Assembly: GCF_039536205.1 (NCBI RefSeq)
Contig: NZ_BAAAYL010000001.1
Location: 5,890,001-5,954,000, forward strand
Length of the DNA: 64,000 nucleotides
Reading direction: 5' to 3'
From: Streptomyces sannanensis
GTDB lineage: Bacteria; Actinomycetota; Actinomycetes; Streptomycetales; Streptomycetaceae
The notes beneath the pieces were generated by a model. It ran no database searches. It saw only the letters and a list, made by a program, of their open reading frames with translations, and was not told the origin of the DNA. This document shows, piece after piece, positions 13,323 through 55,376 of the stretch (positions within the stretch are counted from its first letter, which is position 1; each line of letters opens with the position of its first letter). Both the position numbers and the translations under genes were made by a program.

Positions 13323-13401
13323 GCGAGCCGACCGGATCGGTCCGCCCCCGGACCTGATGCGGCCTGTCCCCATCCCGGCCGCGCCGGACGGACTTCAGGA
13401 C

Positions 13402-13930
13402 ATGACGCGAGCACTGATCGTCGTCGATGTCCAGGAATCCTTCCGCGCCCGCTCCCTGTGGGAGACCATCTCCGACCCGAAGATCGCCCACCAGGTCAAC
13501 CGACCGGTCCGGCTCGCCCGCCGGGCCGGGGACCTGGTGGTGTGGGTGCTGCACAGTGAGCCCGGCAGCGGCGACGTCTTCGACCCTGCCCTCGGCCGCG
13601 TCCGGCTGATGGAGGAACTCGACCGTCAGGACAGCGAACCGATGCTCCACAAGACCTCGCACAACGCCTTCCACCACCAATCTGCAGCAGCTCCTCACCC
13701 CGCACGGCATCCTGGAACTCACCGTCTGCGGCGTCCGCACCGAACAGTGCGTGGAGACCACCACCCGCGTCGCGAGCGACCTGGGCTACCGGGTCACCTT
13801 CGTCACCGACGCCACCGCGACCAACCCCATCCCGCACCGCGACGCCCCTGCCGACCGAAGCATCGCCGACATGCTCGCCGACCCCCGCACCTTGAGCGCG
13901 GAGGAGATCATCAGGCGTACCGAGCTGTCA
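13402..13930 (+). pseudogene. Isochorismatase-family cysteine hydrolase, frameshifted
   Basis: Begins MTRALIVVDVQESFRARSLW (catalytic-type Asp in VDVQ) from an ATG at 13402 and runs to DSEPMLHKTSHNAF. The family sequence then continues in the next frame as TTNLQQLLTPHGILELTVCG VRTEQCVE, containing the nucleophile Cys motif (GV.TEQCVE). The shift lies near 13670, in a CCACCACC stretch, and fits one inserted base. After EEIIRRTEL (about 13925) similarity stops and the next gene begins, so the C-terminus is also lost. A non-functional nicotinamidase-like hydrolase. Confidence 0.75.
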
Positions 13931-13947
13931 CCTACTCTCAATGTGCT

Positions 13948-15321
13948 ATGCACCATCATCCTCACCACTCCCACCGTGAAGCGCTCCATGCTGAGCGGCG
14001 CAGCCTTCGTGAAGCCATACGTGCCCAGCGCACGCTCCTCACGGAGCGCCGCTCGCAGAGGCGGCAAGCCCGACTGGCAGACCAGGCCCGGGAGCGCGCT
14101 CATCGGACGTACCACGACACCCTCGCAGAGGCCGAGCGCACGCTGAGCCGCACACGGGATGCGATCACTGTGCGGCTCCAGGCACTCGATACGAACCGAA
14201 AGCACGCAGAGGCCGAGGCGCTGGGTCTCATACGGAGGCGCTACATCGATGCGGCCCTGCGCAAGCAGTACGTGAACGCGCGGGAACTCAACGGCCTGGG
14301 CGCCATCCTCATCGAAGACCTCAGTGACCGGGGTATCCGCACTGCCGCCGACTTCGTCGGCTTCAGCTGGGGTACGGCCCCGAACGGCCGCGGCAGCGAG
14401 GTCATCTGGATCCGCAAGGCGGGCGGTGGCAGAGTTCACGTGAACGGCATCGGGCCGCACCGGGCCCAGGACCTGGTCCGGTGGCGGGAGTCCTGCGTGG
14501 CCCGTGCGGAGGCCCGCGCCCCGAAGAGGTTGTCCCACGAGGATCGACGCAGGGTCGACGAGATCGTCGAGCAGCAGCGGGCGGATTTGCAGCGCCGCTA
14601 TGTGGCGGCTGGTCTGACAGCCGCGCTCACACGCTTGGCGGCTCGACGGGCTCTGGCGGAGACTCTGGAACAGGCCGAAACAGTCGACCGCGAGTCGGAG
14701 GCCCGGCCGGCGTGGCAGCGAGCGGAGTACGACGCCGCGGTTCTGGCACAGCAAGACGCGCGCCGGGCGGAGCCGGACGCGGAGTACCTGCGTCTCACGG
14801 GGAAGGCAGGGATCCCGGCCGAAGCGAAGGGGGCGTCTGTATCCGGACGTCCTATGGAGCGTGCGGCCGTCAGCAGTTCGGGCGCGGAATATCCACGTCT
14901 CGCAGGGAGGGCCGCTAGTACGACCGAGCCGAGCATCGTGTCCGAACCCGGACGTGCGGCCGAGGACGAGGCCGCCGGCCGCCTCGGCACGGAACACCTG
15001 CGCCTGTCCGGAGAGGCCGGAGAGCCGACCGAGGTGAAGACCGACCCCGGACGTCCGGGCATGGTGTGGTGGGTGCCCGTCCTGCTCTTCGGAAACTGGG
15101 CACGGCTCGACAACGGCGGAGCCATGGGGGCTCCCCCGTCCGTTCAGCAGACCCTGGCCGCGATGAACCTCATCGTGGCGTTGGTCCTGTTGACCATGTG
15201 GGGACGCCGGAAATGGGCCTGGAGGCGCAGTCGGACGGCGCTGCCCATGCCTCGCGCCGCCCGACGGGCCGCGTGGGTGTGGTTCTTCTGCGTCATGGCC
15301 GTGGGGACCTACTACGCATAG
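13948..15321 (+). CDS. Coiled-coil, helix-hairpin-helix and membrane-span protein of unknown function
   Basis: About 457 residues if it starts at the ATG at 13948; no clear ribosome site is visible, so the start is uncertain. Residues 1-90 are a long charged coiled coil rich in Arg/Glu/Ala. A compact domain then includes LGAILIEDLSDRGIRTAADF and, after WIRKAGGGRVHVNGIGPHRA, QDLVRWRESCV. The I-x-G-I-G-P-x-x-A pattern is a helix-hairpin-helix of the kind found in YegI-like proteins. A second coiled coil and a low-complexity acidic region follow, then two hydrophobic segments at the C-terminus (WWVPVLLFG; AWVWFFCVMAVGTYYA). Probably membrane-tethered; role unknown. Confidence 0.6.
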   Translation: MHHHPHHSHREALHAERRSLREAIRAQRTLLTERRSQRRQARLADQARERAHRTYHDTLAEAERTLSRTRDAITVRLQALDTNRKHAEAEALGLIRRRYIDAALRKQYVNARELNGLGAILIEDLSDRGIRTAADFVGFSWGTAPNGRGSEVIWIRKAGGGRVHVNGIGPHRAQDLVRWRESCVARAEARAPKRLSHEDRRRVDEIVEQQRADLQRRYVAAGLTAALTRLAARRALAETLEQAETVDRESEARPAWQRAEYDAAVLAQQDARRAEPDAEYLRLTGKAGIPAEAKGASVSGRPMERAAVSSSGAEYPRLAGRAASTTEPSIVSEPGRAAEDEAAGRLGTEHLRLSGEAGEPTEVKTDPGRPGMVWWVPVLLFGNWARLDNGGAMGAPPSVQQTLAAMNLIVALVLLTMWGRRKWAWRRSRTALPMPRAARRAAWVWFFCVMAVGTYYA

Positions 15322-28623: not shown

Positions 28624-28772
28624 TTTGTCTTGGCTGTCCGTCCTTCACTGTGTCTCCTCATGTCACACCCAGCCACTAATATCTGAGCTGGGGGTTTTGT
28701 CATCCGTCCGGGACGGACGACTCCCGGCGGACTGTGACGCGCGGATCGAAGAGCAAAGGGCGGGGACGGGGC

Positions 28773-31700
28773 ATGCGGGAAGGCCGGTGGACCACGGTCA
28801 CCGAGTCCGAGTTCGACCATGAGCGTCGCGGCCTCGATGCCATCCGCGAGAAGCTGCCGGACTCCGACCCGTGGCGGGCCTGGTCGAACTTCACCTTCAC
28901 CGCGAACACCGGGCACGTCCGTGAGGTCGACCTGCTCGTGGTCGCCCCCGGCGGCATGTGCATGATCGAGCTGAAGGACTGGCACGGCTCGGTCACCTCC
29001 GAGAACGGCACCTGGGTGCAGACCACACCCGGTGGTCACCGGCGCACGCACGGCAACCCGCTGCACCTCGTCAACAAGAAGGCCAAGGAGCTGGCCGGGC
29101 TGCTCGGGCAGAACGGCAAGCGCGTGTGGGTCGGCGAGGCGGTCTGCTTCACCGACAACTCCCTGCGCGTCCGGCTTCCTGCCCATGACCAGAACGGCGT
29201 CTACACGATCGCCGAACTGATCAAGATGCTGGAGCAGCCGCCGCGGGACGAGCGCCGCCGGATCAGCGCGATCGACTCCCGCGAGATCAAGACCGCGCTG
29301 GAGCGGATCGGCATCCGCCGCAGCGACGCCGAGTACAAGGTCGGGCCCTACGAGCTGGATCGGAAGTCTTTCGACTCCGGACCGACCTGGGCCGACTACC
29401 AGGCCCGCCATGTCGAGCTGCCCGAGCTGGCCCGTATCCGTATTTATCTACGGGAACGCGGCTCGGACGCCACGATTCGGCAGTCCGTGGAGAACGCCGC
29501 CAGGCGCGAGGCGGCGGTCCTGAAGCGCTTCCGCCACCCCGGCGCCGTCCAGCTCAAGGACTACTACCCCTCCGGGCACTCGGCCGGCCCCGCGCTGCTC
29601 TTCGACTACCACCCGCAGACGATGAAGCTGGACGAGTACCTGGTCCAGTACGGCGAGAAGCTCGACGTCCTCGGCCGGATGGCCCTCGTACGGCAGCTCG
29701 CCGAGACCATGAGGTCCGCGCACTCCAGCCGTATCCACCACCGGGCGCTCGCCGCGCGCTCGGTGCACGTCCTGCCCCGCAACCGGGGCAGGAAGGGCCA
29801 GGCCGTGGGCGAGGAGGCAGCCTGGCTCAGCCCGCGCCTGCAGATCTCCGACTGGCAGATCGCCACACAGCGGAGCCTGGGCTCGTCCCAGGGCGGGGGC
29901 GCGACCCGTTTCGCGCCGACCGCGCTCTCCGCGATGCACATCGCCGAGGGCTCCGACCCGTACCTCGCGCCCGAGCTGACCGCGCTCAACGCCGACCCGG
30001 TGTACCTGGACGTGTACGGCCTCGGCGTCCTCACGTACCTGCTGGTCACGGGCAAGGCCCCGGCCGCCAGCCAGGCCGAGCTGCTGGCCCGGCTGGAGGC
30101 AGGGGAGGGGCTGCGTCCCAGCTCCCTGGTGGACGGCCTCTCGGAGGACATCGACTTCCTGGTGCAGGCCGCCACGGCGTACCGGCCGCAGCAGCGCCTG
30201 TCCACGGTCGACGAATTTCTGGAGATGCTGGAGATCGTCGAGGAGACCCTCACCGCTCCGGCATCCGCCGCGGCCACCCCCGAAGCCCCGGAGAAGGACC
30301 CGCTCGAAGCCGTCGCGGGCGATGTCCTCGCCGGCCGCTGGGAGGTCCGCCGCCGTCTCGGCACCGGCTCGACCAGCCGCGCCTTCCTCGTCCGCGACCT
30401 CGAGGCCGAGGCGAAGAAGACCCGCCCGCTGGCCGTGCTCAAGGTCGCCCTGTCCGACAGCCGAGGCGAGATCCTCGCCCACGAGGCCGAGGTCATGGGC
30501 CGGCTGCGCCCCGACTCGCGCATCATCCGCCTCGTCGAGCCGGAGCCGCTGCACATCGGTGGCCGTACGGTCCTCGCGCTGGAGTACGTCGGCGACGAGC
30601 GGGACGATGCGGGCAACGGCGAGGCGGGCGAAGGGACATCGCGTTCCCGCCGCCGCGAGGAGACGGTGGCCCGCCAGCTCCGCGAGGGCGGCCGGCTCCC
30701 GATCGACCAGCTGGAGGCGTACGGCGACTACCTCTTCGGCGCCGTCGACTTCCTCGAGGGCGAGGGCGTCTGGCACCGCGACATCAAGCCGGACAACATC
30801 GCGATCCGTATCCGCCCGAACCGCACCCGCGAGCTGGTGCTGATCGACTTCTCGCTCGCCGGATACCCGGCGAAGAACGTCGACGCGGGTACGGAGGGCT
30901 ATCTCGACCCGTTCGTCGAGATCATTACGCGCGGGTCGTACGACTCCCACGCCGAGCGGTACGCCGTCGCCGTCACCCTGCACCAGATGGCGTCGGGCGA
31001 GCTGCCCAAGTGGGGCGACGGGGCTGTGCTGCCGCGGATGACGGACGCGAAGGAGTGGCCGTACCCGAAGATCGAGTTTGATGCTTTCGACCCGGCCGTC
31101 CGCGACGGGCTCGTCGCGTTCTTCCAGAAGGCCCTGCACCGGGATGCCAGCAAGCGCTTCCCCGAGCTGAAGCCGATGCGGGACGCGTGGAAGAAGATCT
31201 TCCTTGACGCCTCGCAGGCCGTGCCGTCCAGCCACCGCACCCGGCATCCCGCGCCCGGCGAGAGCACGCCTGCCGCCATCGCGGAGGCAGAGCCGGAGAC
31301 CGCCGAGCAGCAGCGGGACCGGCTCGCCGCTGAAGTGACCCGCGATACCCCGTTGTCGGTTGCCGGTCTCACGGGTGCCGCGGAGTCGTTCCTGTACGGG
31401 CTTGGCATCACGAAGGTCGGCGAGCTGCTCGACTACAGCCGCCGCAAGCTCGTCAACGCCCCTGGCCTCGGCGCCAAGACCCGCAACGAGGTCCAGCGAC
31501 GTCAGCGCGAGTGGGGCGAGAAGCTGCGCGAGGTCCCTGTTTCGCCGCTCACCCCGCAGGGGCGGGCGGAGGCGAAGGAGGAGCTGGAGCAGCTGACCGC
31601 CGCGGAGTCGGCCGTCGTCGACGTGCTTGCATCGGCCCGCAGCCTGCGCTCCATCAGCCTCGACACCCTCGCCACGATCTTCGTACCGGCGATCAACAAC

Positions 31701-33380
31701 AACGGCTCGAACCGCAACAAGGCGGAGATGGTGCGGCTGCTGCTGCGCCTGCCCGACGAGCAGGGCGTACTGCCGCACGGCATCGGCGTCTGGCCCAAGC
31801 AGAAGGATGTCGCGGAGGCGCTGGGCCTGACGGCCGGCCGCATCCCGCAGATGCTCAAGGAGGAGCGCAAGCGCTGGAAGGACCACGAGGCGGTCCAGGC
31901 GCTGCGCGCGGAGATCCTGGAACTGCTCGCCGGAATGGGGCGGGTCGCCTCGGCAGCCGAGATCGCGGACGCACTGGCGGTGCGCCGCGGCACCCAGCTC
32001 ACCGAGCGCGAGCAGCGGCGTGCGCTCGCTCTCGCGGCGGTGCGAGCGGTGGTGGAGGTCGAGCAGCTCGTACCGGAGGAGGCCGAGTTCCAGCACCAGC
32101 CCAACCGCAAGGCGACGGATGAGTCGCTGGGCGCGGGCCTGCTGGCATTGGACGTACGCGAGGACGACGCCCCGGACACCCCGACCGCGCCCGGCCTGCT
32201 CCACTATGCGACGCGGCTGGGCAAGACGGCGGACCGGCTGGCCGAGCTGGACACGCTGCCGACGGCGGCGACGGTGCTGGTCGAGCTGGGCGCGCTGACC
32301 GTGCCGCCGGGCACGATCGACTGGGACGAGCGCCGCATGGTGGAGCTGGCGGCGGCGGCCTCGACGAACGCGGCCGCCACGCCGCGTCTTGAGGTGTACC
32401 CGCGTGACCTGCCGCTGGTGCGAGCACTGCGTCTCACACAGGCGGGCCTGCCGCGGCTGATCCCGGGTGTACCGGAGCAGCGGCAGCCCGGTCTGACTGG
32501 TGAGGACGTGCACGAGCGGGTACGGGCGCGTTTCCCGGAGCTGGTCATGCCGGACGGCCGGGGCGGTACGACGCACGAGCTGCCGACGGGCGGCCCGCTG
32601 ACGAAGGCGCTGCGTGACGCAGGCTTCGACCTGTCCCTGTCCATGCGCGAGGACACGAAGACGCTGCGGTACCTGCCGACCCGCATGGACCATGTCACCA
32701 GCTACCTCACGGGTGGGGCCTGGGGAACGTCCACCCGCGGTGGTTCGGTGACGCGATACGCGGACGACCCGCAGCTCGCGGGCGCGGTCCGGGCCGAGGA
32801 GCGCCTGCTTGCGTCGGCGCGGCGAGACGGTTACCGGGTGTTGACGGTACGTCAGCAGCTGACGCGGGACGCGGTGGTGGAGCTGGCGGGTGAGCGCTTC
32901 GCTGCCGGCGCCGTCTCGGTGACCGAGCTGTTCCTGGAGGCCATGCACGGGCTCGTCCCACCGGGGACGAAGCCGACGTGGGAGACGCTGCTCAAGGCGG
33001 ACGTGGCCGAGACCGGGTCGCGGGGCGCGATGAAGTTCGCGGAGTACGCGCGTACGGCGTGGGGTTCCGTCGAGCCGCGGGTACGGGAACTGCTCGGCGC
33101 TGGGAGTGGTCCTGTGCTGATGACGGAGGCCGCGGTGTTCGCCCGGTACGACGCGATGGGCGTCCTGGACCGCCTCGCGGACGCGGCCCGGCAGGGCGGA
33201 CGCGGCCTGTGGCTGCTCGTACCGCAGGGCGACCCTTCGCGAGAGCCGCGGCTCGGGCAGGTGGCCGTGCCGTACCAGGCCGGCCTGGGGGAATGGATTC
33301 AGCTTCCGGACACGTGGGTGCGCAAGGCGCACCTCGGGTCCGGCGAGGGTTCTGTGAGTGTCGAGGGAGACGCGAAGTGA
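28773..33380 (+). CDS. pglW: BREX-2 serine/threonine kinase PglW
   Basis: 1535 residues from ATG 28773 (GGGGACGGGG upstream); an in-frame GTG at 28734 would add 13 residues. N-terminal NERD nuclease-related domain (VREVDLLVVAPGGMCMIELK, Asp...Glu-x-Lys). A first, degenerate kinase-like region (about 190-490) lacks a proper HRD motif. A second kinase domain starts at LAGRWEVRRRLGTGSTSRAF (about 519), with catalytic VWHRDIKPDNIAIR about 667 and DFS in place of DFG about 691. A helix-hairpin-helix (LVNAPGLGAKTRNEV, about 885) and a long C-terminal half follow. In S. coelicolor PglW is a kinase needed for phage growth limitation. Its stop overlaps the pglX GTG (GTGA). Confidence 0.95.
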   Translation: MREGRWTTVTESEFDHERRGLDAIREKLPDSDPWRAWSNFTFTANTGHVREVDLLVVAPGGMCMIELKDWHGSVTSENGTWVQTTPGGHRRTHGNPLHLVNKKAKELAGLLGQNGKRVWVGEAVCFTDNSLRVRLPAHDQNGVYTIAELIKMLEQPPRDERRRISAIDSREIKTALERIGIRRSDAEYKVGPYELDRKSFDSGPTWADYQARHVELPELARIRIYLRERGSDATIRQSVENAARREAAVLKRFRHPGAVQLKDYYPSGHSAGPALLFDYHPQTMKLDEYLVQYGEKLDVLGRMALVRQLAETMRSAHSSRIHHRALAARSVHVLPRNRGRKGQAVGEEAAWLSPRLQISDWQIATQRSLGSSQGGGATRFAPTALSAMHIAEGSDPYLAPELTALNADPVYLDVYGLGVLTYLLVTGKAPAASQAELLARLEAGEGLRPSSLVDGLSEDIDFLVQAATAYRPQQRLSTVDEFLEMLEIVEETLTAPASAAATPEAPEKDPLEAVAGDVLAGRWEVRRRLGTGSTSRAFLVRDLEAEAKKTRPLAVLKVALSDSRGEILAHEAEVMGRLRPDSRIIRLVEPEPLHIGGRTVLALEYVGDERDDAGNGEAGEGTSRSRRREETVARQLREGGRLPIDQLEAYGDYLFGAVDFLEGEGVWHRDIKPDNIAIRIRPNRTRELVLIDFSLAGYPAKNVDAGTEGYLDPFVEIITRGSYDSHAERYAVAVTLHQMASGELPKWGDGAVLPRMTDAKEWPYPKIEFDAFDPAVRDGLVAFFQKALHRDASKRFPELKPMRDAWKKIFLDASQAVPSSHRTRHPAPGESTPAAIAEAEPETAEQQRDRLAAEVTRDTPLSVAGLTGAAESFLYGLGITKVGELLDYSRRKLVNAPGLGAKTRNEVQRRQREWGEKLREVPVSPLTPQGRAEAKEELEQLTAAESAVVDVLASARSLRSISLDTLATIFVPAINNNGSNRNKAEMVRLLLRLPDEQGVLPHGIGVWPKQKDVAEALGLTAGRIPQMLKEERKRWKDHEAVQALRAEILELLAGMGRVASAAEIADALAVRRGTQLTEREQRRALALAAVRAVVEVEQLVPEEAEFQHQPNRKATDESLGAGLLALDVREDDAPDTPTAPGLLHYATRLGKTADRLAELDTLPTAATVLVELGALTVPPGTIDWDERRMVELAAAASTNAAATPRLEVYPRDLPLVRALRLTQAGLPRLIPGVPEQRQPGLTGEDVHERVRARFPELVMPDGRGGTTHELPTGGPLTKALRDAGFDLSLSMREDTKTLRYLPTRMDHVTSYLTGGAWGTSTRGGSVTRYADDPQLAGAVRAEERLLASARRDGYRVLTVRQQLTRDAVVELAGERFAAGAVSVTELFLEAMHGLVPPGTKPTWETLLKADVAETGSRGAMKFAEYARTAWGSVEPRVRELLGAGSGPVLMTEAAVFARYDAMGVLDRLADAARQGGRGLWLLVPQGDPSREPRLGQVAVPYQAGLGEWIQLPDTWVRKAHLGSGEGSVSVEGDAK

Positions 33381-36300
33381 TCGACCGCAAGGCTCTGTTG
33401 GACAACCTGAAGCAGCAGGTCAAGGCGGTCGAGACCGACCTCGCACGGCAGGTGAAGGTCGTGGAGGAGGTCGGGACGCGGCTGCGCGGCGAGTACGACC
33501 AGGCGCGCAAGCTGGGGCGTACGGCGGCGACGTGGAACTCGTGGCTCGACGACCGCGTCACGCAGGTCGCGGTGGCGTGGGTCCTGGGGTCGGTCTTCGT
33601 CCGCTTCTGTGAGGACAACCGGCTGATCCCCGAGCCGTACCTGACGGGCCCGGACGGCGACCGTCGCGAACTGGCCGAGGCGCGTTACGACGCGTATGTG
33701 GAGGCGGAGGACGACCCGACGTACCGGGGCTGGCTGGAGCGCGCCTTCGAGGAACTGGGCGCGGGCCAGGCCGGCCGACTGCTCTTCGATCGCAAGCACA
33801 ACCCCCTGTACCAGATCCCGCTGTCGCACGACGGTGCGCGGGAGCTGGTCGAGTTCTGGCGCGAGCGCGACGAGTCGGGTGCGCTGGTCCATGACTTCAC
33901 GGACCCGCTGAACGAGGACGGCACGGAGGGCTGGGACACGCGGTTCCTGGGTGACCTGTACCAGGACCTGAGCGAGGCCGCGCGTAAGACATACGCGTTG
34001 CTCCAGACCCCGGAGTTCGTGGAGGAGTTTATCCTCGACCGCACGATGGACCCGGCGGTCCGGGAGTTCGGCTATGAGGACCTGAAGATGATCGACCCCA
34101 CGTGCGGGTCGGGTCACTTCGTCCTGGGCGCCTTCCGGCGGCTGGTTCGGCTGTGGGGGGAGGGTCAGCCGGGGCGTGACGTGCACGAGCGGGTGCGGGC
34201 TGCGCTGGATTCTGTGCATGGAGTGGACCTGAACCCGTTCGCGGTGGCTATCGCGAGGTTCCGGTTGTTGGTTGCGGCTATGGCTGCGAGCGGTGTACGG
34301 ACGCTGGCAGAGGCCGCCAGGTACGAGTGGCCCATCCACCTGGCTGTCGGCGACTCGCTCATCAAGGCCCGCCAGCTGGAACTGACGCTGCTGGGCGAGG
34401 ACGAGGACGGGGCCGACGACCCGCTGGCCTCGTTCGCCTACGCCACCGAGGACGTGCACGAGCACTCAGGGATCTTGCAGCAGGGGCGCTATCACGTGGT
34501 GGTCGGAAACCCGCCGTACATCACAGTGAAGGACAAGAAGCTCAACGCGCTGTACCGGGAGCTTTACGACGCCTGCGGGGGTACGTACGCGCTGTCGGTG
34601 CCGTTTGCGCAGAGATTCTTTGATCTTGCCAAGCGGGGGGACGCCGAGGGGCGTGGCTACGGCATGGTCGGGCAGATCACTGCCAACTCGTTCATGAAGC
34701 GCGAGTTCGGTACGAAGCTGATCGAGAGCTACTTCCGCGACCGTGTTGAGTTGACGGAGGTCATCGACACCTCCGGCGCCTACATCCCCGGGCATGGGAC
34801 GCCTACTGTCATCCTGGTAGGTAAGCGCCGTGATGGCAGCGGACGCTCGCATACCATTCGCACGGTGCGAAGCGTCCAGGGCGAGCCCGCAGCGCCGGAG
34901 AACGCCGAGGACGGTCTGGTGTGGAACGCGATCGTGGACCAGATCGACAAACCGGGCTCGGTGAGCCAGTGGGTGTCGGCGGACGACCTTGAGCGGGCGC
35001 GGTATTTCGCTAGGAAGCCGTGGATCTTGACCGACGGCGGGCTTGAGATGGTCGAGGCCTTGTCGGTGGCTGGCGTGGCACCGCTCAAGTCGCAGATTGT
35101 CCGGATTGGCTTCTACGGCGACACCCATGCTGATGACGCACTCACGATGCCGGCCCGGGTACTCAAGATGCGCGGCGCAGAACCGGAGTTTGTCAAGCGC
35201 ATCGGCGTAGGTGACGAGGTGCGGGACTTTGCCATTGCTGATGGCAGCTCTGTGATTCACCCGTACGACTCTTCGCGGTCGATTGCTCCCGTTGGCGTCA
35301 TGCCGAATATCGGGCGAATTCTGTGGCCTAACCGGACCGAGCTCGGAAATCGTTCGACGTTTTCGGGCCGTACCTACTTTGCCGACAGCCGTGCCTGGTG
35401 GGAATGGCACCAGCTCCCGAAAGACGACAGTGCCCACGAGTGGTCCCTGAACTTTGCTTTCGTAGCCACGCATAACCATGTTGCCTTGGACCGCAGTGGA
35501 CGTGCTTTCACTCGAACCACTCCGGTGATCAAGTTGCCAGAGAGGGCCAATAGGGAGGAGCACCTGCGGCTGCTTGGGCTGCTCAACAGCTCTACTGCTG
35601 GTCTGTGGCTCAAGATGGTGAGTCACAGCAAGGGGACAGAAGGGCATCAGTCTGGCATCAAGACCGAACTCTGGGAGCAGTTCTACGAGTTCACGGGAAC
35701 CAAGGTTCAGGAGCTCCCGCTCCCCGCCGAGTACCCCACAGCCCTTGCAACTGTGCTCGATACCCTTGCTCAGCAGCTCTCCACTACCAGCCCCTCCGCC
35801 CTAGCGACTGAGTCCACCCCCACTGCCCCCGCCCTCCGCGAAGCCAAGGCCCGCTGGGAATCCACTCGCGCTCGCATGATCGCCCTTCAGGAGGAGCTGG
35901 ACTGGCAGGTCTACTCCCTCTACAAGTTGTACCCCGAAGACCTCCGCGTCTCCGAGGACCCCAACGAGCCCAAAACCCCCCAACTCGCCCTCGGTGAGCG
36001 CGCCTTCGAGATCGTCCTTGCGCGTCGCGTCGCCGCAGGCGAGGCGTCCGACGAGTGGTTCAAGCGGCACAACTCCACCCCCATCACGGAGATCCCCGCG
36101 CACTGGCCAGCCCCCTACCGGGAGATCGTCCAGAAGCGGATCGACGCCATCGAGTCGTCCCGCGCCATCGGCATGATTGAGCGCCCCGAGTACAAGCGCC
36201 GCTGGGCCACCGAGGGCTGGGACGCCCTCCAGGAGAAGGCCCTGCGCTCCTGGCTGCTCGACCGGATCGAGAACCGGGACCACTGGTACGACGAGAACGG

Positions 36301-37000
36301 CCTGCCTACGCTCGTCACCCTCTCCCGGCTCACCGACGCCCTCTCCCGTGACGTGGACTTCGTCTCCGTTGCCAAGCTCTACGCGCCCCGCAAGGACCTG
36401 CCGAAGGTCGTCGCGGAGCTGCTCGCTGACGAGCATGTGCCGTTCCTCGCAGCCCTGCGCTACAAGCCTGCCGCCCTGAAGAAGCGCGCGGACTGGGAGC
36501 ACGTGTGGGACCTTCAGCGTCAGGAGGATGCCGCGCCCGACGAGTCGGCCAAGCGCAAGATCCGGGACTCCATCCCCGTACCGCCGAAGTACACCTCCGC
36601 CGACTTCCTGCGCCCCTCCTACTGGCGGGCGCGTGGCAAGCTCGACGTACCCAAGGAACGCTTCATCTCCTACGCCCAGACCAACACCCCTACCCCCGAG
36701 CTGTACGGGTGGGCCGGCTGGGATCAGCGGGAGCAGGCGCAGGCCCTCGCCACGTACTTCACCAACACCGCACTGTCCACCGAGGAAATCACGCCGTTCC
36801 TCGCCGGGCTGCTGGAGCTCCAGCCGTGGCTGTTCCAGTGGCACAACGAGTTCGACATGCTCTACAGCGTCTCCCCTGCGGACTTCTTCGCCAGCTACCG
36901 CCAGCAGAAGCAGGGCGAGCACGGACTCACCGATGACGACCTTCGCAACTGGCGTCCCCCGGCCGCAGCCCGAGGCCGTCGCGCCGCCGTGAAGAAGTAG
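33377..37000 (+). CDS. pglX: BREX-2 adenine-specific DNA methyltransferase PglX
   Basis: 1207 residues from GTG 33377, in a 4-base overlap with pglW. N-terminal coiled coil (LKQQVKAVETDLARQVKVVE). N6-adenine methylase motif I DPTCGSGHFVLGAF about residue 240 and motif IV VGNPPYI about 376. A target-recognition region follows (about 570-810), then a long C-terminal part. BREX methylases mark self DNA; in S. coelicolor PglX modifies progeny phage and is toxic without PglZ. The codons between about 34.8 and 35.8 kb are noticeably less GC-rich than the rest of the gene. Two G6 tracts (34155-34160, 34635-34640) are candidate slippage sites. The ORF is intact. Confidence 0.96.
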   Translation: MIDRKALLDNLKQQVKAVETDLARQVKVVEEVGTRLRGEYDQARKLGRTAATWNSWLDDRVTQVAVAWVLGSVFVRFCEDNRLIPEPYLTGPDGDRRELAEARYDAYVEAEDDPTYRGWLERAFEELGAGQAGRLLFDRKHNPLYQIPLSHDGARELVEFWRERDESGALVHDFTDPLNEDGTEGWDTRFLGDLYQDLSEAARKTYALLQTPEFVEEFILDRTMDPAVREFGYEDLKMIDPTCGSGHFVLGAFRRLVRLWGEGQPGRDVHERVRAALDSVHGVDLNPFAVAIARFRLLVAAMAASGVRTLAEAARYEWPIHLAVGDSLIKARQLELTLLGEDEDGADDPLASFAYATEDVHEHSGILQQGRYHVVVGNPPYITVKDKKLNALYRELYDACGGTYALSVPFAQRFFDLAKRGDAEGRGYGMVGQITANSFMKREFGTKLIESYFRDRVELTEVIDTSGAYIPGHGTPTVILVGKRRDGSGRSHTIRTVRSVQGEPAAPENAEDGLVWNAIVDQIDKPGSVSQWVSADDLERARYFARKPWILTDGGLEMVEALSVAGVAPLKSQIVRIGFYGDTHADDALTMPARVLKMRGAEPEFVKRIGVGDEVRDFAIADGSSVIHPYDSSRSIAPVGVMPNIGRILWPNRTELGNRSTFSGRTYFADSRAWWEWHQLPKDDSAHEWSLNFAFVATHNHVALDRSGRAFTRTTPVIKLPERANREEHLRLLGLLNSSTAGLWLKMVSHSKGTEGHQSGIKTELWEQFYEFTGTKVQELPLPAEYPTALATVLDTLAQQLSTTSPSALATESTPTAPALREAKARWESTRARMIALQEELDWQVYSLYKLYPEDLRVSEDPNEPKTPQLALGERAFEIVLARRVAAGEASDEWFKRHNSTPITEIPAHWPAPYREIVQKRIDAIESSRAIGMIERPEYKRRWATEGWDALQEKALRSWLLDRIENRDHWYDENGLPTLVTLSRLTDALSRDVDFVSVAKLYAPRKDLPKVVAELLADEHVPFLAALRYKPAALKKRADWEHVWDLQRQEDAAPDESAKRKIRDSIPVPPKYTSADFLRPSYWRARGKLDVPKERFISYAQTNTPTPELYGWAGWDQREQAQALATYFTNTALSTEEITPFLAGLLELQPWLFQWHNEFDMLYSVSPADFFASYRQQKQGEHGLTDDDLRNWRPPAAARGRRAAVKK

Positions 37001-44231: not shown

Positions 44232-47200
44232 ATGGCCCAGCAGCCCCTTCTTCGCGATGTCATCAACATCAAGGAGTCCATCTCGACCTCGGACTTCGTG
44301 CTGTCCCTCGCCGAGGCGACCACGCGCGAGGGTGCCGAGCACGCGCTCAAGGACTACGTGGTCACGGAGCGGCTGCTGGAGAACTTCGATGAGGCCCTCG
44401 GCCTCATCAAGTCCGCCCTCGACGGTCACACCTCCAAGGCGGCTTACCTGCACGGCTCGTTCGGTTCCGGTAAGTCGCACTTCATGGCCGTCCTGCACGC
44501 GCTCCTCAGCGGCAGCCCGGCCGCCCGTGCGCGCAGCGAGTTCGACCCCGTACTGACCAAGCACGAGTGGCTCGGCACGGACGGCAAGAAGTTCCTGCTC
44601 GTGCCCTACCACATGCTCGGCGCCAAAGCCCTGGAGCAGCGCGTGCTCGGCGGGTACGTCCACCATGTAAAGAAGCTGCACTCGGACGCCCCGACCCCGC
44701 AGGTGTACCGGACCGACTCCCTCTTCGCCGATATCCGCGCCATGCGGGCCAACATCGGCGACGAAGGCGTCATCCGGGGCCTCGGCAGCGCGGACAGCGC
44801 CGACGAAGAGGACGAGTGGGGCGAGGGCTTCGCCTGGACCCCGCAGCTCCTCGACACCGCACTCGCCGCCGAGGAGGTCCACGAGGCCGGCGAGGCCCTG
44901 AACCTGGTCTCCCCCTCCACGCCCCCGGAACTGCGCGCCCGCCTTGTCCAGGACGCCAGCACCAACCTCCTCCCCGGCTTCGCCAAGAATGCCGTAGAGG
45001 ACGAGCACGGCTTCATCTCGCTCGACGCCGGTTTGTCCGTCATCGCCGAGCACGCCAAGGCGCTCGGCTACGACGGGCTGATCCTCTTCATGGACGAGCT
45101 GATCCTGTGGCTCGCCACCCTCATTCACGACCAGAAGTTCGTGGCCCGCGAGGCCAGCAAGATCACGAACTTCGTGGAGGGCGGCGACGCCCGCCGGGCC
45201 ATCCCGGTCGTGTCGTTCATCGCCCGCCAGCGTGACCTGCGTGAGCTGGTCGGCGAGGAGGTGTCCGGGGCCGCCGAATCGTCCATCCAGGACACCCTCA
45301 ACCTCGCCTCCGGACGCTTCGACAAGATCACCCTCGAGGACCGCAACCTCCCCCAGATCGCCAACGCCCGCCTGCTCAAGCCGAAGGACGACGCAGCAGC
45401 CCAGCTGGTCGACGCGGCCTTCGAGCAGACGAAGCGGGTCGGCACCCAGATTTGGGATACCCTCCTCGGCTCCGACAAGGGGACGACGGGCGCGGACGCC
45501 GACTCGTTCCGGCTGACGTACCCCTTCTCGCCGGCCTTCATGGACACCCTCGTCCACATCTCGTCCGCGCTGCAGCGCTCCCGTACCGGTCTGAAGCTGA
45601 TGGGCCAGCTGCTTGCCGACCACCGCGACGACCTCCGCCTTGGCCAGCTCATCCCCGTCGGCGATCTCTACCCCGTCATCGCGGAGGGCGGCGACAAGCC
45701 CTTCACCGACAGCCTGAAGGTCGTCTTCGAGGCCGCTGACAAGTTGTACAAGAACAAGCTGCGGCCGTACCTGCTCACCTCGTACGACATCACCGAGGAC
45801 GACGTCGAGCAGTACCTGCACAGGCCCGACACCATCACCGACCCCAAGCTGGCCAACAGCTGCCGTCTGTTCGTCGGCGACAACCGGCTCGCCTGCACCC
45901 TCCTCCTGTCCGCCCTCGCACCCAGCGTGCCCGCCCTCTCCGAGCTGACCATCCGCCGCCTCGGCGCGCTCAACCACGGCTCGGTGATGGCGCCCATCCC
46001 GGGCAGCGAGGTCGGCATCATCAAGAACAAGGTCGCCGAGTGGGCGGCCCGGTTCCCCGAGATCAAGGAGACCGGCACCGACGCCAACCCGGGCGTCCGC
46101 CTCGAACTCTCCGGCGTCGACGTGGACTCCGTCATCGCCAACGCCCAGGTCAACGACAACCCGGGCAACCGGCTGGCGCTCGCCAAGCGGCTGCTGTCCG
46201 AGGAACTCGGTGTCGAGCACGGAGCGTTCAGCGACGAACTCAACTTCGTCTGGCGCGGTACCGGCCGCACCGCCGAGGTCGTCTTCGGGAACGTCGCCGA
46301 CGAGGACGAGCTGCCCGACCACGACCTGATGCCGCAGGAGGAAGGGCGCTGGCGGATCGCCGTCGACCTGCCCTTCGACGAGGGTGAGTGGGGGCCCGTC
46401 GAGGACGCCAACCGGATGCGGCGACTGCGCGAGAAGCAGCAGGGCGAGCGGTCCCGTAGCGTCGCCTGGCTGCCCGCGCACCTCTCCGCCCAGCGGTTCG
46501 CGGACTTCCGCCGCCTCGTCGTCATCGACAAGGCCCTGGCCGACGAGCAGCGCTTCGACACCCAGTACGCCGGCCACCTCAACGCCGACAACCGCAGCCG
46601 CGCCAAGGGCCTGCTGGAGACCCAGCGCGAATCCCTGCTCAAGCAGGTCAAGGGCGCCTTCAAGCAGGCATACGGGCTGGCGCAGAAGCAGGACGCGGAC
46701 GTCTCCCTCGACTTCGACGACCACCTCCAGGCGCTGCCGGACGTCAGCGACCTCACGCTGTCCTTCGGTCAGTCCCTGCACGACGGCATCCGGCACGTGG
46801 CCGGCAAGCTGCTCGTCCACCAGTACCCGGCGCACCCGAACCTCGACCCCGACGCGACGGAGACGGCCGTCAAGCCCGCCGACGCGCGGAAGGTCTTCAC
46901 ACACGTCCGGGCCGCGGCCGAGGCGCGCGACGGGCGGATCGAGGTTCCGGCCGCCGACCGCAAGCTGATGCAGCGGATCGCGACTCCCCTCCGGCTGGGT
47001 CAGCAGAAGGAGGCGTACTTCGAGCTGTCCCGCTACTGGGCCGACCACTTCCGTCAGCTCGCCAGCGGGCAGGGCACGACCGGCGACCTCAGCCTGATCA
47101 CGCTCACCGACTGGACAGACAAGCCCGAGCCGCGCGGTCTGCCGGACTTCCTCGCCAAGCTGGTCGTGGCCTCCTTCGCGGAGATGGACGACCGGGTGTG

Positions 47201-48119
47201 GGTGCGCGGCAGCACCGTTCTCGACCCCGCCCCCGAGCTGGCGCAGATCAAGGACCACGACGCCCTGCGCAGCCAGCCCCTGCCCGGCGAAGCCGACTGG
47301 GAGGCCGCGCGGCAGCGCTTCGAGACCGTCTTCGGACAGAAGGCGCCCACGCTGCGGCGCGGACGCATGGTCAATCAGTTCGCCCGTCAGATCATCGACT
47401 CCGTCCGCGTGCAGCAGGAGCACGCCGCCGAACTCGTACGGCAGCTGGAGGCGCACTCCTCCTTCCTCGGCCTGGACGAGACCGACGACACCGGGCGGCT
47501 CGCGCTCGCCCGTCGCGCGCTCGAGCTCCTCAAGGCAGTCACGGCGGCTGCCGGGCAGGGCGCGGCCGGGGCGAAGAAGACGGTGGAGACGCTCGCCTCC
47601 TTCGACCTCGGCGCCGTCAGCGCCGACCGGTACGGGACCTCGATCAAGCAGGCCCGCGCCGTCGCCGAAGCCCTCGCGCGAGCCTCCTGGTCCACCCTCG
47701 ACCTCGCCTCGTCCGAAGGCCCCGAGGGTGCCGCGCTGCTCGACTCCCTGCGCAACGTGGCGCGAGGCGACCAGCGCACCGGTGACCTGCGCGACGCCCT
47801 GGCCCGTACGCAGCGCGAGGTGCTGGCGCTGGTGAAGCGGAACCGGGCGGCGGCCACCCCGCAGCCTGTTCCCGTCGTGCCCACCCCGCCCGCGCCGACC
47901 GCGGGGGACATCTCTCTGAGCACGGACACCAGCCACCCGCCGGTGCCGGAGATCCCGCAGCAGACGGGCGCCGCCGGCAGCCCGGGCACCGTGCGGCGCT
48001 CGGGCGGGGGCCGGACCACGGCAGGCCGAGCCGTGGCCGAACTCCAGGCGGAACTGGCCGAGCTGGCGTCCCGTGAGCCGGGTGCCACCATCGAGATCAC
48101 CTGGCGGGTCGTCGACTGA
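44232..48119 (+). CDS. pglY: BREX-2 ATPase PglY
   Basis: 1295 residues from ATG 44232 (AGGGAG upstream). N-terminal [20 protein letters not shown] and Walker [21 protein letters not shown] about residue 75, the BrxC/PglY arrangement. Probable Walker [14 protein letters not shown] about 280. The rest is a long alpha-helical body typical of the family, ending in a low-complexity linker and [11 protein letters not shown]. PglY is an ATPase required for BREX-2 immunity. TGATG overlap with pglZ shows tight coupling. Confidence 0.95.
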
Positions 48120-51025
48120 TGAGCACCTCCACCGTCGCCGTACCGGGCGCGGTCCGGCTGAACACCGCGACCGTCACCCAGTACCTGTCGTCCCAGTCGT
48201 CGCTGGCCGCCTCCCTGGTGGAGGCGGTTGGCGGCAAGCGGCGAGTCGTTCTGCTGCGGTCCGCGCCGCAGTGGGACGGCCCCGCCGAGCCCGCCTGGGG
48301 CGAGGGGAACACCGCCCGCGTCGCTGCCGCGCCCTCCCCACTCGCCGTTCACGAGCTGGTTCTCGACCACCTGGCGGAACGGTCCGCCGGTCCCGCCGTC
48401 CTGGTCGTCCTGACCGACCGTGAGCAGACCGAGCTCGACCCGGCGATTCTCGCGCGCGTCCACAAGAAGCGTGTCGAGACCGTCGACAGCTGGGACGTGG
48501 TGCGCGAGGCGTTCGGCGCGGAGCAGATCGACACCCGGCTCAAGGACGCCAACTGGGCGGCCGAGGCGCTGCTCGACGCCACTCCGCCCGGCGGCTGGCC
48601 GCCGCTGGCCGGCGGCGTGCTGTCCCGGCGGGACGCGCTCACCGCGCTCGCACTCCGCCGCCTGCGTCTCGGACGTTACGCCACCGACCAGGACGTGCGC
48701 CGTCCGGGCGATGACCGGCTCGACGCCCACGCCCTGCTGCGTTGGTCGCTGAGCGGCGGCGGACCCGAGCGTCTGCTGGGACTGCGCGGCCCCGAGCGCG
48801 CCGGGCTGACCGCGTTCCTCGGCGAGGAGGACCAGGCGAGCCTCGCCGGGCGCGCGCTGCTCGCCCTCGTCGACGCCGAGCACGGGGCCGACGCGGTGGC
48901 GTTCGGGCTGGTGTGCGGGGCACTGTGGCTGCACGCGGAGCCGGACGCGGAGACCTACCGGGCGCGGGGGCGCGCCGAGCGCTGGTTCGGCGAGCAGCCG
49001 CCCGCGGCCGGGGAGCAGCTCGACGCCCTGGTGTCGGTCTTCGGCCGAGCCGCCGAGGAGTTCGTGGCCGCACTGCTCGTGACGGGAAACCGTACCGGGA
49101 GCGGCGACGCGGACGAGGCCCGAGAGGCCCGCCGGGTCACCGGCACCGTCCTGGACAAGGCGGCGACGCTGGCGCGGCAGTTCGGCGCCGAGGCGGCCGT
49201 CCGGTCGAGTTCCGTCCTGGCGGGCGGACTTGAGGCGAGGTTCACCGCGGTGGGGCAGGCGCTCGTGGCCGCGGAGCCGGCTGCCGCCGCGGCGGCGGTC
49301 CGGAATCTGGAAAAGCACTCGCTCGCCTCCGCCCCCGACATGCCTGCCCGCATCGAGCGGGCCGCCATGGGGCAGCGGCTCGCCCAGTGGCTGGCCACCG
49401 ACCCGGCCCTCGAGTCGGACTCGGTTGCCGCCGCCATACAGCGCCACATCGCCGAAACCGGCTGGGTCGACCTGGCGCTGGAACACATCGAAGCCGGCGG
49501 CGATCCCGACCCCGTGCTGAAGTCCGCGTACGACACCCTCGGCGCACGGGTCCGCGAGCGGCGCCGTGAGATCGACCGTGCCTTCGCGCGCTCCCTGGCG
49601 GTCTGGACCGAGGCGGGTACGCCGCTCGGCGCGACGCCGACCGTGGAGACCTTCCTCGACAAGGTCGTGAAGCCCGTCGTGACGCACGGGGAGGGGCGGC
49701 GCGTCCTGCTGCTCCTCCTGGACGGCATGAGCGCACCCATCGCGAGCGAGCTCGCCGAGGAACTCCGCCAGTCCTGGGCCGAGTTCGACCCGTTGGACGA
49801 GGGCGCTCCGCGCCGACGAGCCGTGGCAGCCGCCCTGCCCACCCTGACCGCCGTGTCCCGCACCTCCCTGTTCGCGGGCACGCTGATGAAGGGCACGCAG
49901 GCCGACGAGAAGCGTCTGTTCCCCGCACACAAGCTGTGGGGCGGTGCCCCGGCCGTCGTCTTCCACAAGGACGACCTGCGCACCGAAACAGCAGGAGACA
50001 CCTTCGGCCCGGCACTCACCGAAGCCCTCAACGACGGCAGGACGCATGTCGCGGTCGTCCTGAACACCATCGACGACCGGCTCGCCAAGGAGCAGAAGCT
50101 CGGCGACGCAGCCTGGCACGTCGACCACGTCAGTGCGCTGCGCGAGCTGCTGAGGGCCGCCGCTGAGCAAGGCATGGCGGTGATCCTCACGAGCGACCAC
50201 GGGCACGTAGTCGACCGGCACGGAGTGAAGGCCGAGGCCGCCGAGCCGGCCTCGGCCCGGCACCGCCTCCCGGGCGGCCCCCTGGGCGACCGTGAGATCG
50301 CACTGTCCGGCCCCCGTGTGGTCTGGCCGGAGCCCGGTGCCTCGATCGTCGCCCTGTGGGACGCCGACTCCCGCTACACCGCACTCAAGGCCGGCTACCA
50401 CGGCGGCGCCTCCCTCGCCGAGTTCACCATCCCGGTCCTGGCGTTCCTGCCCTTCGGGGCGGAGCCGCCCAGGGGCTGGCGCGAGCTGGGCGACCAGCGC
50501 CCCGAGTGGTGGTCGCCGGAAGCGAAGACGCCACGTGCCCATGTCCCGGCCCAGTCCCAGGCACCTGCGCAGGCCGCGAAGAAGGCAGCTGCCAAGCCCA
50601 AGAAGGCTCAGGTCGAACTCGCCCAGACCCACGACTCGCTCTTCGACGTGGAGCTGGCCGCCGGTGGCGACGACGTCCTTGTCACCCCCCACCCTGGTGT
50701 CCCCGGACGAGGCCCTGATCGCCGGGCTGCTCGCCTCGGACATGTACCAGGCGCAGATCGGAGTTCTGGCCCGCAAGCCCAAGCCCGCAGAGGTCGAGAA
50801 GGCACTCACCGCCCTGCTCGACGCGGGCCGTACCCTCCCCGTGACGGCCCTGGCCCAGCGCATCGGCATGCCGCCCGCCCGAGGCGCCGGTTTCGCCGCC
50901 GTACTGCGCCAGCTCCTCAACTACGACGGCGTGCAGGTCCTGGAGACCCTGCCGGACGGGCGCACTCTGCGGCTGGACGTCGAGCTGCTGCGGCTGCAGT
51001 TCGGGCTCGCCTGAGGGCTACATGA
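48119..51025 (+). CDS. pglZ: BREX-2 phosphatase PglZ, C-terminus frameshifted
   Basis: The ORF as sequenced is 968 codons. Alkaline-phosphatase-like core: [40 protein letters not shown] and [15 protein letters not shown]. From codon about 857 the product becomes Arg/Pro-rich nonsense ([20 protein letters not shown]...). The overlapping next frame continues a coherent protein, [30 protein letters not shown]..., to a TGA at 51014. The switch point is the C6 tract 50685-50690; deleting one C gives an intact protein of about 964 residues. In S. coelicolor PglZ counteracts PglX toxicity. Either phase variation, mutation or sequencing error. Confidence 0.93.
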
Positions 51026-51888: not shown

Positions 51889-53223
51889 GTGATCGACAAC
51901 CGTGCCACATCCGTCTCCGCCGCACGCCGTCGCACCGTGATCGACGCCCTTCGACGCGGAGCCGTGCCCGAAAGCGGGCTCGACCTGCTGGCCACCGGGC
52001 TCGGCCGGTTCGAGGCGGCGCTCGACGCGGAGCTGGACGCGGTCGCGTCCGGGGCGTCCGTCTTCAAGGCCGTACGCGGCGAGTACGGCTCCGGCAAGAC
52101 CTTCTTCACCCGCTGGCTGGGTGAGCGGGCCAAGCGGCGCAACTTCGCTGTCTCCGAGATCCAGATCTCGGAGACCGAGACACCGCTGCACAAGCTGGAG
52201 ACCGTCTACCGCCGGCTCACCGAACGCCTCACCACGGCGAGTTTCCCGCCCAGCGCGCTGCGGCCCGTCGTCGACGCCTGGTTCTACGCCCTGGAAGAGG
52301 ATGCGCTCGCTGCCGGGGCGAGCGAGGAGGAGCTGCCGCAGGAAGTCGAGAAGCTGCTTGTGGCACGGCTCGCCGAGGTGTCCCGGCAAGCGCCGTCCTT
52401 CGCCACCGCGCTGCGCGGCTACCGCAACGCCCTGGCCGAGGGCGACGAGGCGACCGCGGCCGCCGTGCTGGCGTGGCTGGGCGGGCAGCCGCACGTTGCC
52501 GCCGCCGCGCGCCGGTCCGCCGGAGTACGCGGCGACCTCGACCACTTCGGGGCCTTCGGTTTCCAGCAGGGCCTGCTGACCGTGCTGCGCGACTCCGGGC
52601 ACGCGGGCCTCTTCGTCGTACTGGACGAGGTGGAAACCCTGCAGCGGGTACGGTCGGACGCACGCGACAAGGCGCTCAACGCACTGCGGCAGCTCATCGA
52701 CGAGGTGCACTCCGGGCGCTTCCCCGGCCTGTACCTGGTGATCACCGGAACCCCGGCGTTCTACGACGGGCAGCAGGGCGTGCAGCGACTCGCACCGCTT
52801 GCCCAGCGCCTGGCCACCGACTTCACCACCGACCCGCGCTTCGACAACCCGCGTGCCGTACAGCTCAGGCTGCCCGGATTCACCCAGGAGTCACTGGTGG
52901 GGCTCGGAGTGACCATCCGCGATCTCTACGCCGAGGGAGCCGAGGCGCCGGAGCGGATCAGGAACGTTGCCGACGACGCCTACATCGCCGACCTGGCGGG
53001 GGCCGTCGGTGGGGCGCTCGGCGGGAAGGTCGGGGTCGCGCCGCGGCTGTTCCTGAAGAAGCTCGTCGGAGACGTGCTCGACCGAGTCGACCAGTTCGAG
53101 GACTTCGACCCCCGGCAGCACTACAAGCTGACCGTCGCGAGCACCGAACTCACCGATGTGGAGCGGAACCTGGCGGCCGTGGCCGTCGGAGCCTCCGCCG
53201 ACGATATCGAGTTGGACCTTTGA
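51889..53223 (+). CDS. brxD: BREX-2 ATP-binding protein BrxD
   Basis: 444 residues from GTG 51889. Walker A VRGEYGSGKTFFTRWLGERA about residue 64 and Walker B GLFVVLDEVETLQR about 240, then FPGLYLVITGTPAFYDGQQG (sensor region). DUF2791-type AAA ATPase characteristic of BREX type 2. Its stop and the brxHI start share TGATG. Present in BREX-2 loci with brxHI as partner helicase. Confidence 0.92.
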   Translation: MIDNRATSVSAARRRTVIDALRRGAVPESGLDLLATGLGRFEAALDAELDAVASGASVFKAVRGEYGSGKTFFTRWLGERAKRRNFAVSEIQISETETPLHKLETVYRRLTERLTTASFPPSALRPVVDAWFYALEEDALAAGASEEELPQEVEKLLVARLAEVSRQAPSFATALRGYRNALAEGDEATAAAVLAWLGGQPHVAAAARRSAGVRGDLDHFGAFGFQQGLLTVLRDSGHAGLFVVLDEVETLQRVRSDARDKALNALRQLIDEVHSGRFPGLYLVITGTPAFYDGQQGVQRLAPLAQRLATDFTTDPRFDNPRAVQLRLPGFTQESLVGLGVTIRDLYAEGAEAPERIRNVADDAYIADLAGAVGGALGGKVGVAPRLFLKKLVGDVLDRVDQFEDFDPRQHYKLTVASTELTDVERNLAAVAVGASADDIELDL

Positions 53224-55376
53224 TGGCGGCGGACACCGACGGGCCCGACGTCCTTGAACGGCTCGACCCCGTCGTGCTGCACCACATCGTCAACACCCTC
53301 GGCTGGCCCGACCTGCGCCCGCTGCAACGGGCGGCGATCGCACCGCTCATGGACGGCGAGGACGCCGTGCTGCTCGCGCCGACGGCCGGGGGCAAGACCG
53401 AGGCGGCCTGCTTTCCGATCCTTTCCGCGATGGCCGGGCACAAATGGACCGGCACTTCGGTGCTGTACCTGTGTCCCCTCAAGGCGCTGCTCAACAACCT
53501 CGTCACACGCGTCGATGCGTACGCCCAGTGGCTGGGACGGCGGGCCGCGCTCTGGCACGGCGACACCAAGGAATCGCAACGGCGGCGTATCCGCACCGAT
53601 CCGCCGGACATCCTGCTGACCACACCCGAATCGCTGGAAGCCATGCTGATCGGGGTCAAGACCGACCATGCACACGTGCTCGGCGGAGTGCGGGCCGTCG
53701 TCGTCGACGAGGTGCACGCCTTCGCGGGCGACGACCGGGGCTGGCACCTGCTCGCCGTACTGGAACGGCTGGAGCGGGTCACGGGACGGCCCATCCAGCG
53801 GATCGGGTTGTCGGCCACGGTGGGCAATCCTCAGCAGCTGCTGGGATGGCTGCAGGGAGCGGGGGAGGGGAAGCGGCCGGGGCGGGTCGTCGCTCCCGGC
53901 GTGGTGCTCCCCGCCGCCGGCGCTGCTGACGGCCCCCGGCCCGCAGGCGAGGTCGAGCTGGATTACGTAGGGTCGCTGGACAACGCCGCCAAACTGATCG
54001 CCGCCCTGCACCGAGGCGAGAAGCGGCTCGTCTTTTGCGACTCGCGGCGGCAGGTCGAACAGCTTGGCGCGGCCCTGCGGGCACGGGACGTGACGGTCTT
54101 CCTGTCCCACGCCTCCCTCTCCGCCGACGAACGGGCCCGCTCCGAGCAGGCGTTCGCCGAGGCGCGGGACTGCGTCATCGTCTCCACCTCGACCCTGGAA
54201 CTCGGCATCGACGTCGGTGACCTGGACCGCGTCATCCAGATCGACTCACCGGCCACCGTCGCCTCGTTCCTGCAGCGCATCGGGCGCACCGGGCGGCGCG
54301 CCGGAACCGTACGCAACTGCCTCTTCCTCGCCACCCGCAAGGACACCCTGCTGCAGGCCGCCGGATTGCTCCTGCTGTGGGGCCGGGGCTGGGTGGAGCC
54401 GGTCACCGCACCGCCCGAGCCGCGCCACCTCGTCGCCCAGCAGCTACTGGCGGCCACACTGCAACAGCACAAGCTAGGCGATCAGTTGTGGTCCGAGGAG
54501 TGGAACGGGCTCGCGCCGTTCGACCGTTCGGCGGCCCCTGTCCTGCGGCATCTGCTCGACGAGGGCTTTCTTGACGAGGACGGCGGGCTGCTGTTCATTG
54601 GCCCCGAGGCAGAACGACGCTTCGGCCAGCGGCATTTCATCGAACTCACCGCTTCCTTCACCGCCCCGCCCCAGTTCACTGTGCTGTCCGGGCGTACGGA
54701 AATCGGTCAGACCGATCCGTCCGTACTGACCGAGGAACGGCCGGGCCCGAGGCGGCTGCTGCTGGGCGGGCGCAGCTGGCAGGTCACCTTCGTCGACTGG
54801 GTACGCAAACGGGTCTTCGTCGAGCCCGTGGACAGGGGCGGAGTCGCCAAGTGGATGAACGGTGGCATCGGAGGCCTGTCGTACGCGCTGACACGGGCCA
54901 TGCGCGAGGTGCTCCTCGGAGCCGACCCGCCGGTGACGCTGACACGGCGTGCAGAGGCATGTCTTGTCGAGGCACGCGAGGACGACGCCCCGGACACTGT
55001 GCACCCGGGTGGGACGCTGGTGACCAGGGTCGGTGACGATGTCCGCTGGTGGACCTGGGCCGGCTACCGGGCCAATGCCACGCTCTCCGCAACCTTCCCG
55101 TCCATCTCCGACCCCGTCCAGCGGCCCAGCGACTGCTGGGTGCGGTTGCGGGAGGACCTCACCCCCGAGCTGTGGCGCGCGGCCCGCGAAGGCGCCGACG
55201 AAGGACTCGCCCTGCCCGACGTGGACCGGCGGGCCGTGCGCGGGCTCAAGTTCTCGGCCGCGCTCCCGGAACGGCTCGCCATTGCCACGGTCGCTGCCCG
55301 ACTGGCGGACTTCGACGGGGCACGAGCGGCGCTGGCGGAGCCGGTGCGCTTTCACCACGACGGTGCGTCTCGATAA
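53223..55376 (+). CDS. brxHI: BREX-2 DEAD/DEAH-box helicase BrxHI
   Basis: 717 residues from ATG 53223. Q-motif region LRPLQRAAIAPLMDGEDAVL, Walker A LAPTAGGKT about 54, DEVH in AVVVDEVHAFAGDDRGWHLL, SAT in RIGLSATVGN, helicase C-terminal ERARSEQAF-like and VSTSTLELGIDVGDLDRVIQ, motif VI FLQRIGRTGRRAGTV. Superfamily 2, Lhr-like helicase. Completes the BREX-2 set (W, X, Y, Z, D, HI). Confidence 0.92.
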   Translation: MAADTDGPDVLERLDPVVLHHIVNTLGWPDLRPLQRAAIAPLMDGEDAVLLAPTAGGKTEAACFPILSAMAGHKWTGTSVLYLCPLKALLNNLVTRVDAYAQWLGRRAALWHGDTKESQRRRIRTDPPDILLTTPESLEAMLIGVKTDHAHVLGGVRAVVVDEVHAFAGDDRGWHLLAVLERLERVTGRPIQRIGLSATVGNPQQLLGWLQGAGEGKRPGRVVAPGVVLPAAGAADGPRPAGEVELDYVGSLDNAAKLIAALHRGEKRLVFCDSRRQVEQLGAALRARDVTVFLSHASLSADERARSEQAFAEARDCVIVSTSTLELGIDVGDLDRVIQIDSPATVASFLQRIGRTGRRAGTVRNCLFLATRKDTLLQAAGLLLLWGRGWVEPVTAPPEPRHLVAQQLLAATLQQHKLGDQLWSEEWNGLAPFDRSAAPVLRHLLDEGFLDEDGGLLFIGPEAERRFGQRHFIELTASFTAPPQFTVLSGRTEIGQTDPSVLTEERPGPRRLLLGGRSWQVTFVDWVRKRVFVEPVDRGGVAKWMNGGIGGLSYALTRAMREVLLGADPPVTLTRRAEACLVEAREDDAPDTVHPGGTLVTRVGDDVRWWTWAGYRANATLSATFPSISDPVQRPSDCWVRLREDLTPELWRAAREGADEGLALPDVDRRAVRGLKFSAALPERLAIATVAARLADFDGARAALAEPVRFHHDGASR

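Follow-up and report, generated by a model that had tools for sequence, protein, structure and literature searches.

A frame break at a six-cytosine run separates the PglZ core from a predicted C-terminal winged helix in a Streptomyces BREX type 2 cluster

The window, i.e. the whole stretch of 64,000 nucleotides that was analysed (C1:5890001-5954000), comes from a genome whose 5 contigs total 7.83 Mb and carries a BREX type 2 (Pgl) cluster at 28734-55376. PADLOC profiles identified pglW, pglX, pglY (brxC), pglZ, brxD and brxHI, so that the full type 2 gene set is found together, all on the plus strand. The cluster opens with pglW (28734..33380), which encodes NERD and kinase domains (PADLOC PglW profile PDLC02512, 1569.7 bits; Pfam NERD and Pkinase), followed by the methyltransferase gene pglX (33377..37000; PDLC02529, 1646.4 bits) with an inferred GTG start at 33377. 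About 7 kb of other genes separate pglX from pglY (44232..48119), coding for the BrxC-type ATPase (PDLC02488, 1477 bits). Beyond pglZ lie the genes for the BrxD ATPase (51889..53223; PDLC02494, 685.4 bits) and the BrxHI helicase (53169..55376; PDLC02503, 1082.1 bits), the frame of the latter being given as scanned, with its true start slightly inside. The five genes besides pglZ have open frames, and our coding-frame model called no filtered frame break in the cluster other than the one in pglZ. Within pglX, six G in a row (34155-34160) fall on the motif LVRLWGEGQP, where several of 30 pglX genes likewise carry a G6 run.

As it stands, the pglZ ORF (48119..51025, plus strand) comprises 968 codons, of which the first 857 encode PglZ and the remaining 111 (residues 858-968) a frame-shifted tail rich in Arg and Pro. 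The missing end of the protein is encoded in another frame of the same strand at 50691..51014 (107 codons and a stop), directly behind a run of six C at 50685..50690. The first-pass annotation had described a PglZ that is normal up to about codon 856 and Arg/Pro-rich thereafter, a coherent C-terminus in another frame reaching 51014, and a frame break at the C6 run, and these statements withstand scrutiny from several sides. Its remark that automated annotation would overlook the break, the two lengths (968 and about 964) being so similar, is plausible. Positions 23-803 of the PADLOC PglZ profile PDLC02565 (length 910) correspond to ORF residues 38-848, whereas 50691-51011, read in the other frame, matches profile positions 805-907 on its own (E 8e-29); a search of the whole genome with the same profile also split pglZ at this place. 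A frame-aware coding model, trained on this genome and blind to homologues, switches frame at 50690, where the C run ends. The GC content at the three codon positions is 0.78/0.53/0.90 before the site and 0.80/0.45/0.92 in the downstream piece when read in its coherent frame, but 0.90/0.80/0.45 for the tail in the frame of the ORF. We also considered whether the downstream piece is a separate gene with its own start; this was rejected, as the nearest start in that frame lies some 7 bases past the site and is preceded by a C-rich stretch in which no ribosome-binding site could be recognised by eye.

A comparison with the pglZ genes of other BREX-2 loci, in line with the alignment suggested in the first-pass annotation, agrees. 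We compared 81 pglZ loci, 29 from a sample of genomes and 52 from named records, which amount to 73 distinct sequences; in all 73 the N and C parts stand in one frame with no intervening stop. Three of them were followed over part of the gene only, since L029 is decayed further upstream and contig ends truncate both L030 and L099. One further locus, L103, was left out, having fragmentary matches to the N part and none to the C part. The 52 named loci (L051-L102), BREX type 2 pglZ genes from other actinobacteria, mostly Streptomyces, belong to the same family, with 54-79% identity over the matched N part, and, unlike the window gene, every one of them reads through the site in one frame. That the Arg/Pro-rich tail is a genuine PglZ ending was therefore rejected, a frame change at the site occurring in 0 of 73 relatives. 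In L091 (Streptomyces ruber) a short stretch of pglZ (query residues 276-312, locus positions 5741-5851) fits the relatives better in another frame, possibly due to a compensated frameshift, while the main frame stays open.

The break divides the protein into a part that is kept and a part that is lost. The alkaline-phosphatase-like core domain is intact (49697..50218, plus strand; Pfam PF08665, residues 527-700) and contains the conserved Asp residues expected of a type 2 PglZ, D535 and D693. In S. coelicolor PglZ their conserved counterparts are D535 and D694, as matched by numbering and by the SDHG motif rather than by aligning the two proteins. The PglZ of type 2 systems ends in a three-stranded wHTH, according to a 2026 survey (PMC12839542), and it is this end that is out of frame in the window, so that the PglZ is incomplete. 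An AlphaFold2 model of the lost piece, computed from 34 aligned sequences (33 of the 52 named loci plus the window), has a mean pLDDT of 94.1 and the order of helices and strands of a winged helix; winged-helix proteins make up most of the closest matches among solved structures, none of which is strong. We therefore predict a winged-helix fold for the lost C-terminal domain of 107 residues.

The Pgl system of S. coelicolor offers a close laboratory parallel. There, PglX is reported to be toxic without PglZ, and pglZ deletions arose at extremely low frequency: in two of the three that were obtained the pglX tract was shorter, and pglZ complemented none of them (PMC4365076). Strain J1934, which carries pglZ(1-834) and thus lacks the last 130 residues, is in turn Pgl-minus, i.e. 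phage-sensitive, yet viable with pglX and complemented by pglZ, and its authors hypothesised that the truncated PglZ still protects against intact pglX (PMC4365076). J1934 and the window have in common that the C-terminal part of PglZ is gone while the catalytic core is kept and pglX is present. They differ in that the former results from a laboratory insertion, whereas in the window the frame shifts by one base after codon 857, removing 107 residues and adding a tail of 111; by residue number, the break in the window lies 23 residues further on. The first-pass annotation had regarded a frameshifted pglZ beside an intact pglX as unexpected. The intact pglX is confirmed, its frame being open and its NPPY motif present, but the surprise is lessened by the viability of, and the protection hypothesised for, pglZ(1-834). 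Natural loss of pglZ is also seen elsewhere, there without pglX: in the genome of L029 (G057) pglZ lies in two fragments in different frames, and no pglX match was found at E 1e-100. The passages of the literature on pglZ and frameshifts that we consulted contain no description of a naturally frameshifted BREX-2 pglZ.

Based on these findings we tentatively favour, at a probability just short of even, a plain mutation over a programmed switch, i.e. a type 2 BREX pglZ with a recent one-base change at an ordinary C6 run that disables restriction and keeps the PglZ core. In the sequence as it stands, the frame is lost after codon 857, the catalytic core remains in frame and the predicted C-terminal winged helix is swapped for an unrelated tail. 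The resulting protein would lack a part needed for phage restriction, and this BREX copy would be off. The remaining core may still restrain PglX, which would explain why the cell tolerates the broken gene, and the allele might be regarded as a natural counterpart of pglZ(1-834) of S. coelicolor. By analogy with that allele, Pgl-minus and hypothesised to be protective, the expected state would be one in which restriction is off and protection on, although the frame-shifted tail of 111 residues could destabilise the protein. If the change is real, it would provide a natural allele in which the two functions of PglZ, restricting phage and protecting the cell from PglX, come apart, it would single out the C-terminal winged helix as necessary for restriction, and it would illustrate that a BREX cluster that is complete by profile counts can nevertheless be off.

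An error of sequencing or assembly is the strongest competitor and has a substantial probability. Homopolymer length is commonly miscalled, and if the length of the C run was read wrongly the living strain would have an ordinary in-frame pglZ, in which case the break matters for annotation only. From this genome we surveyed 1,656,001 bases, made up of the window and 80 further stretches, and from each of two other genomes 400,000 bases as controls. Of 92 spiked one-base changes, the break finder detected 80 before its filter was applied and 73 afterwards. The coding-frame model called 18 filtered breaks in the 1.66 Mb of this genome vs. 4 and 1 in the 0.4 Mb of each control. Judged by eye from the translations, the 18 include decayed mobile genes and likely false calls such as the pair 13672/14015, where, within the open ORF 13357-15321, some 340 bases score better in another frame under the coding model, which may reflect paired compensating shifts as well as a false call. 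A genome assembled poorly throughout is not supported, since the density of breaks resembles that of one control and is about four times that of the other, but a handful of homopolymer errors may nevertheless be present. Three of the 18 breaks (at the pglZ C6, a C7 in L046 and a G9 in L214) lie near C/G runs of at least six, as compared to none of five in the 800 kb of controls, numbers that are too small for a test. The break at L046:12965 (C1, ~5.313 Mb), near the C7, affects a gene that has DNA matches throughout the genus, and its two halves stand in one frame in all 11 relatives fetched from the 40 other genomes searched; thus, either homopolymer errors occur in the assembly or the strain really carries such broken genes. 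On the other hand, of the 453 C/G runs in the sample that are exactly six long, the pglZ run alone lies within 60 bases of a filtered break, and the other 452 do not. Searches of 60 other genomes returned no DNA relatives of the genes affected by the breaks in L137 and L214.

Selection on the C part bears on the same choice, and here the tests disagree. The comparison included 51 genes (53 rows, i.e. the 52 named relatives and the window gene, minus two with incomplete N parts), 43 of which had enough close partners. Among these 43, the window pglZ has the highest ratio of C-part to N-part pN/pS and the third lowest identity of the C part relative to the N part; as the genes are related, such ranks are not probabilities. 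The raised pN/pS of the C part points, weakly, to real relaxation and a change that has persisted, and thus away from an error. The conserved columns point the other way: the C part is changed at none of the 29 invariant columns and at 2 of the 60 conserved at 90%, the window gene ranking 14, 8 and 9 of 51, so that relaxed selection is not seen there, as would suit a gene that is in frame in the living strain.

Phase variation, the possibility raised in the first-pass annotation, would mean that slippage at the C run toggles between full-length and truncated PglZ and turns restriction off without releasing the toxicity of PglX. We regard it as improbable. It can draw on the precedent of S. coelicolor, whose Pgl system is phase-variable, a property ascribed to the G8 tract of pglX (Sumby and Smith 2003, as related in PMC4365076), and the off form would be akin to pglZ(1-834), which S. 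coelicolor tolerates. Both cases involve a homopolymer run in a Streptomyces pgl gene; in S. coelicolor, however, this is a G8 in pglX for which switching has been measured, whereas the window has a C6 in pglZ that is not conserved. Within the 21 nucleotides around the site, the longest C run is 1-4 in 65 of the 73 relatives, 5 in six and 6 in two, and an off-frame allele occurs in none of them. The run is also short and no longer than the background of its genome, as 14 of the 453 six-base C/G runs in the 1.66 Mb sample lie in the window alone, three of them in pglX. Moreover, C/G runs of at least six number 27 in 51 pglZ genes, counted over the N and C parts and leaving aside the linker with the C6 site, which suggests that a C/G run as such means little. 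A better candidate for slippage within this genome is the break at L214:18896 (C1, ~1.539 Mb), located in a long gene beside a G9 that is one of only two C/G nine-runs in the sample. With a run that is neither conserved nor unusual and no relative off-frame at the site, phase variation at the pglZ C6 is unsupported. It would be more doubtful still that slippage in pglZ instead of pglX serves as a safe off-switch for BREX-2, in which the winged helix is lost, the core continues to restrain PglX and the cell avoids poisoning itself. A real, recent mutation ranks slightly above an error, and both rank well above phase variation.

Ribosomal recoding, in which a +1 slip on CCC-C would yield some full-length PglZ, is highly improbable: slips on CCC-C have been described for bacteria and the downstream frame is free of stops with a coding-like GC content by codon position, but no relative needs a slip, all 73 being in one frame.

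The chromosome contains a second BREX-2 cluster about 150 kb upstream (C1, ~5.763-5.790 Mb), composed of an open pglW (L271:5084-9532), pglX, pglY and an unbroken pglZ (L031:3081-18808), and brxHI (L032:238-2367). The gap between its pglZ and brxHI would fit a brxD gene. Between the two clusters, the PglX proteins are 49% identical, and the PglZ proteins 37% identical over an alignment of 787 columns. Most likely, one of the two BREX-2 clusters has lost its function through an ordinary mutation, or else its sequence contains an assembly error. If the preferred reading of a plain mutation is correct, the second cluster, which is open, may keep the cell protected; cross-protection by its PglZ, i.e. 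complementation of the broken copy, is possible, and we do not argue for it here. Between pglX and pglY of the second cluster lies an ORF on the minus strand that matches MkoA/MkoC profiles.
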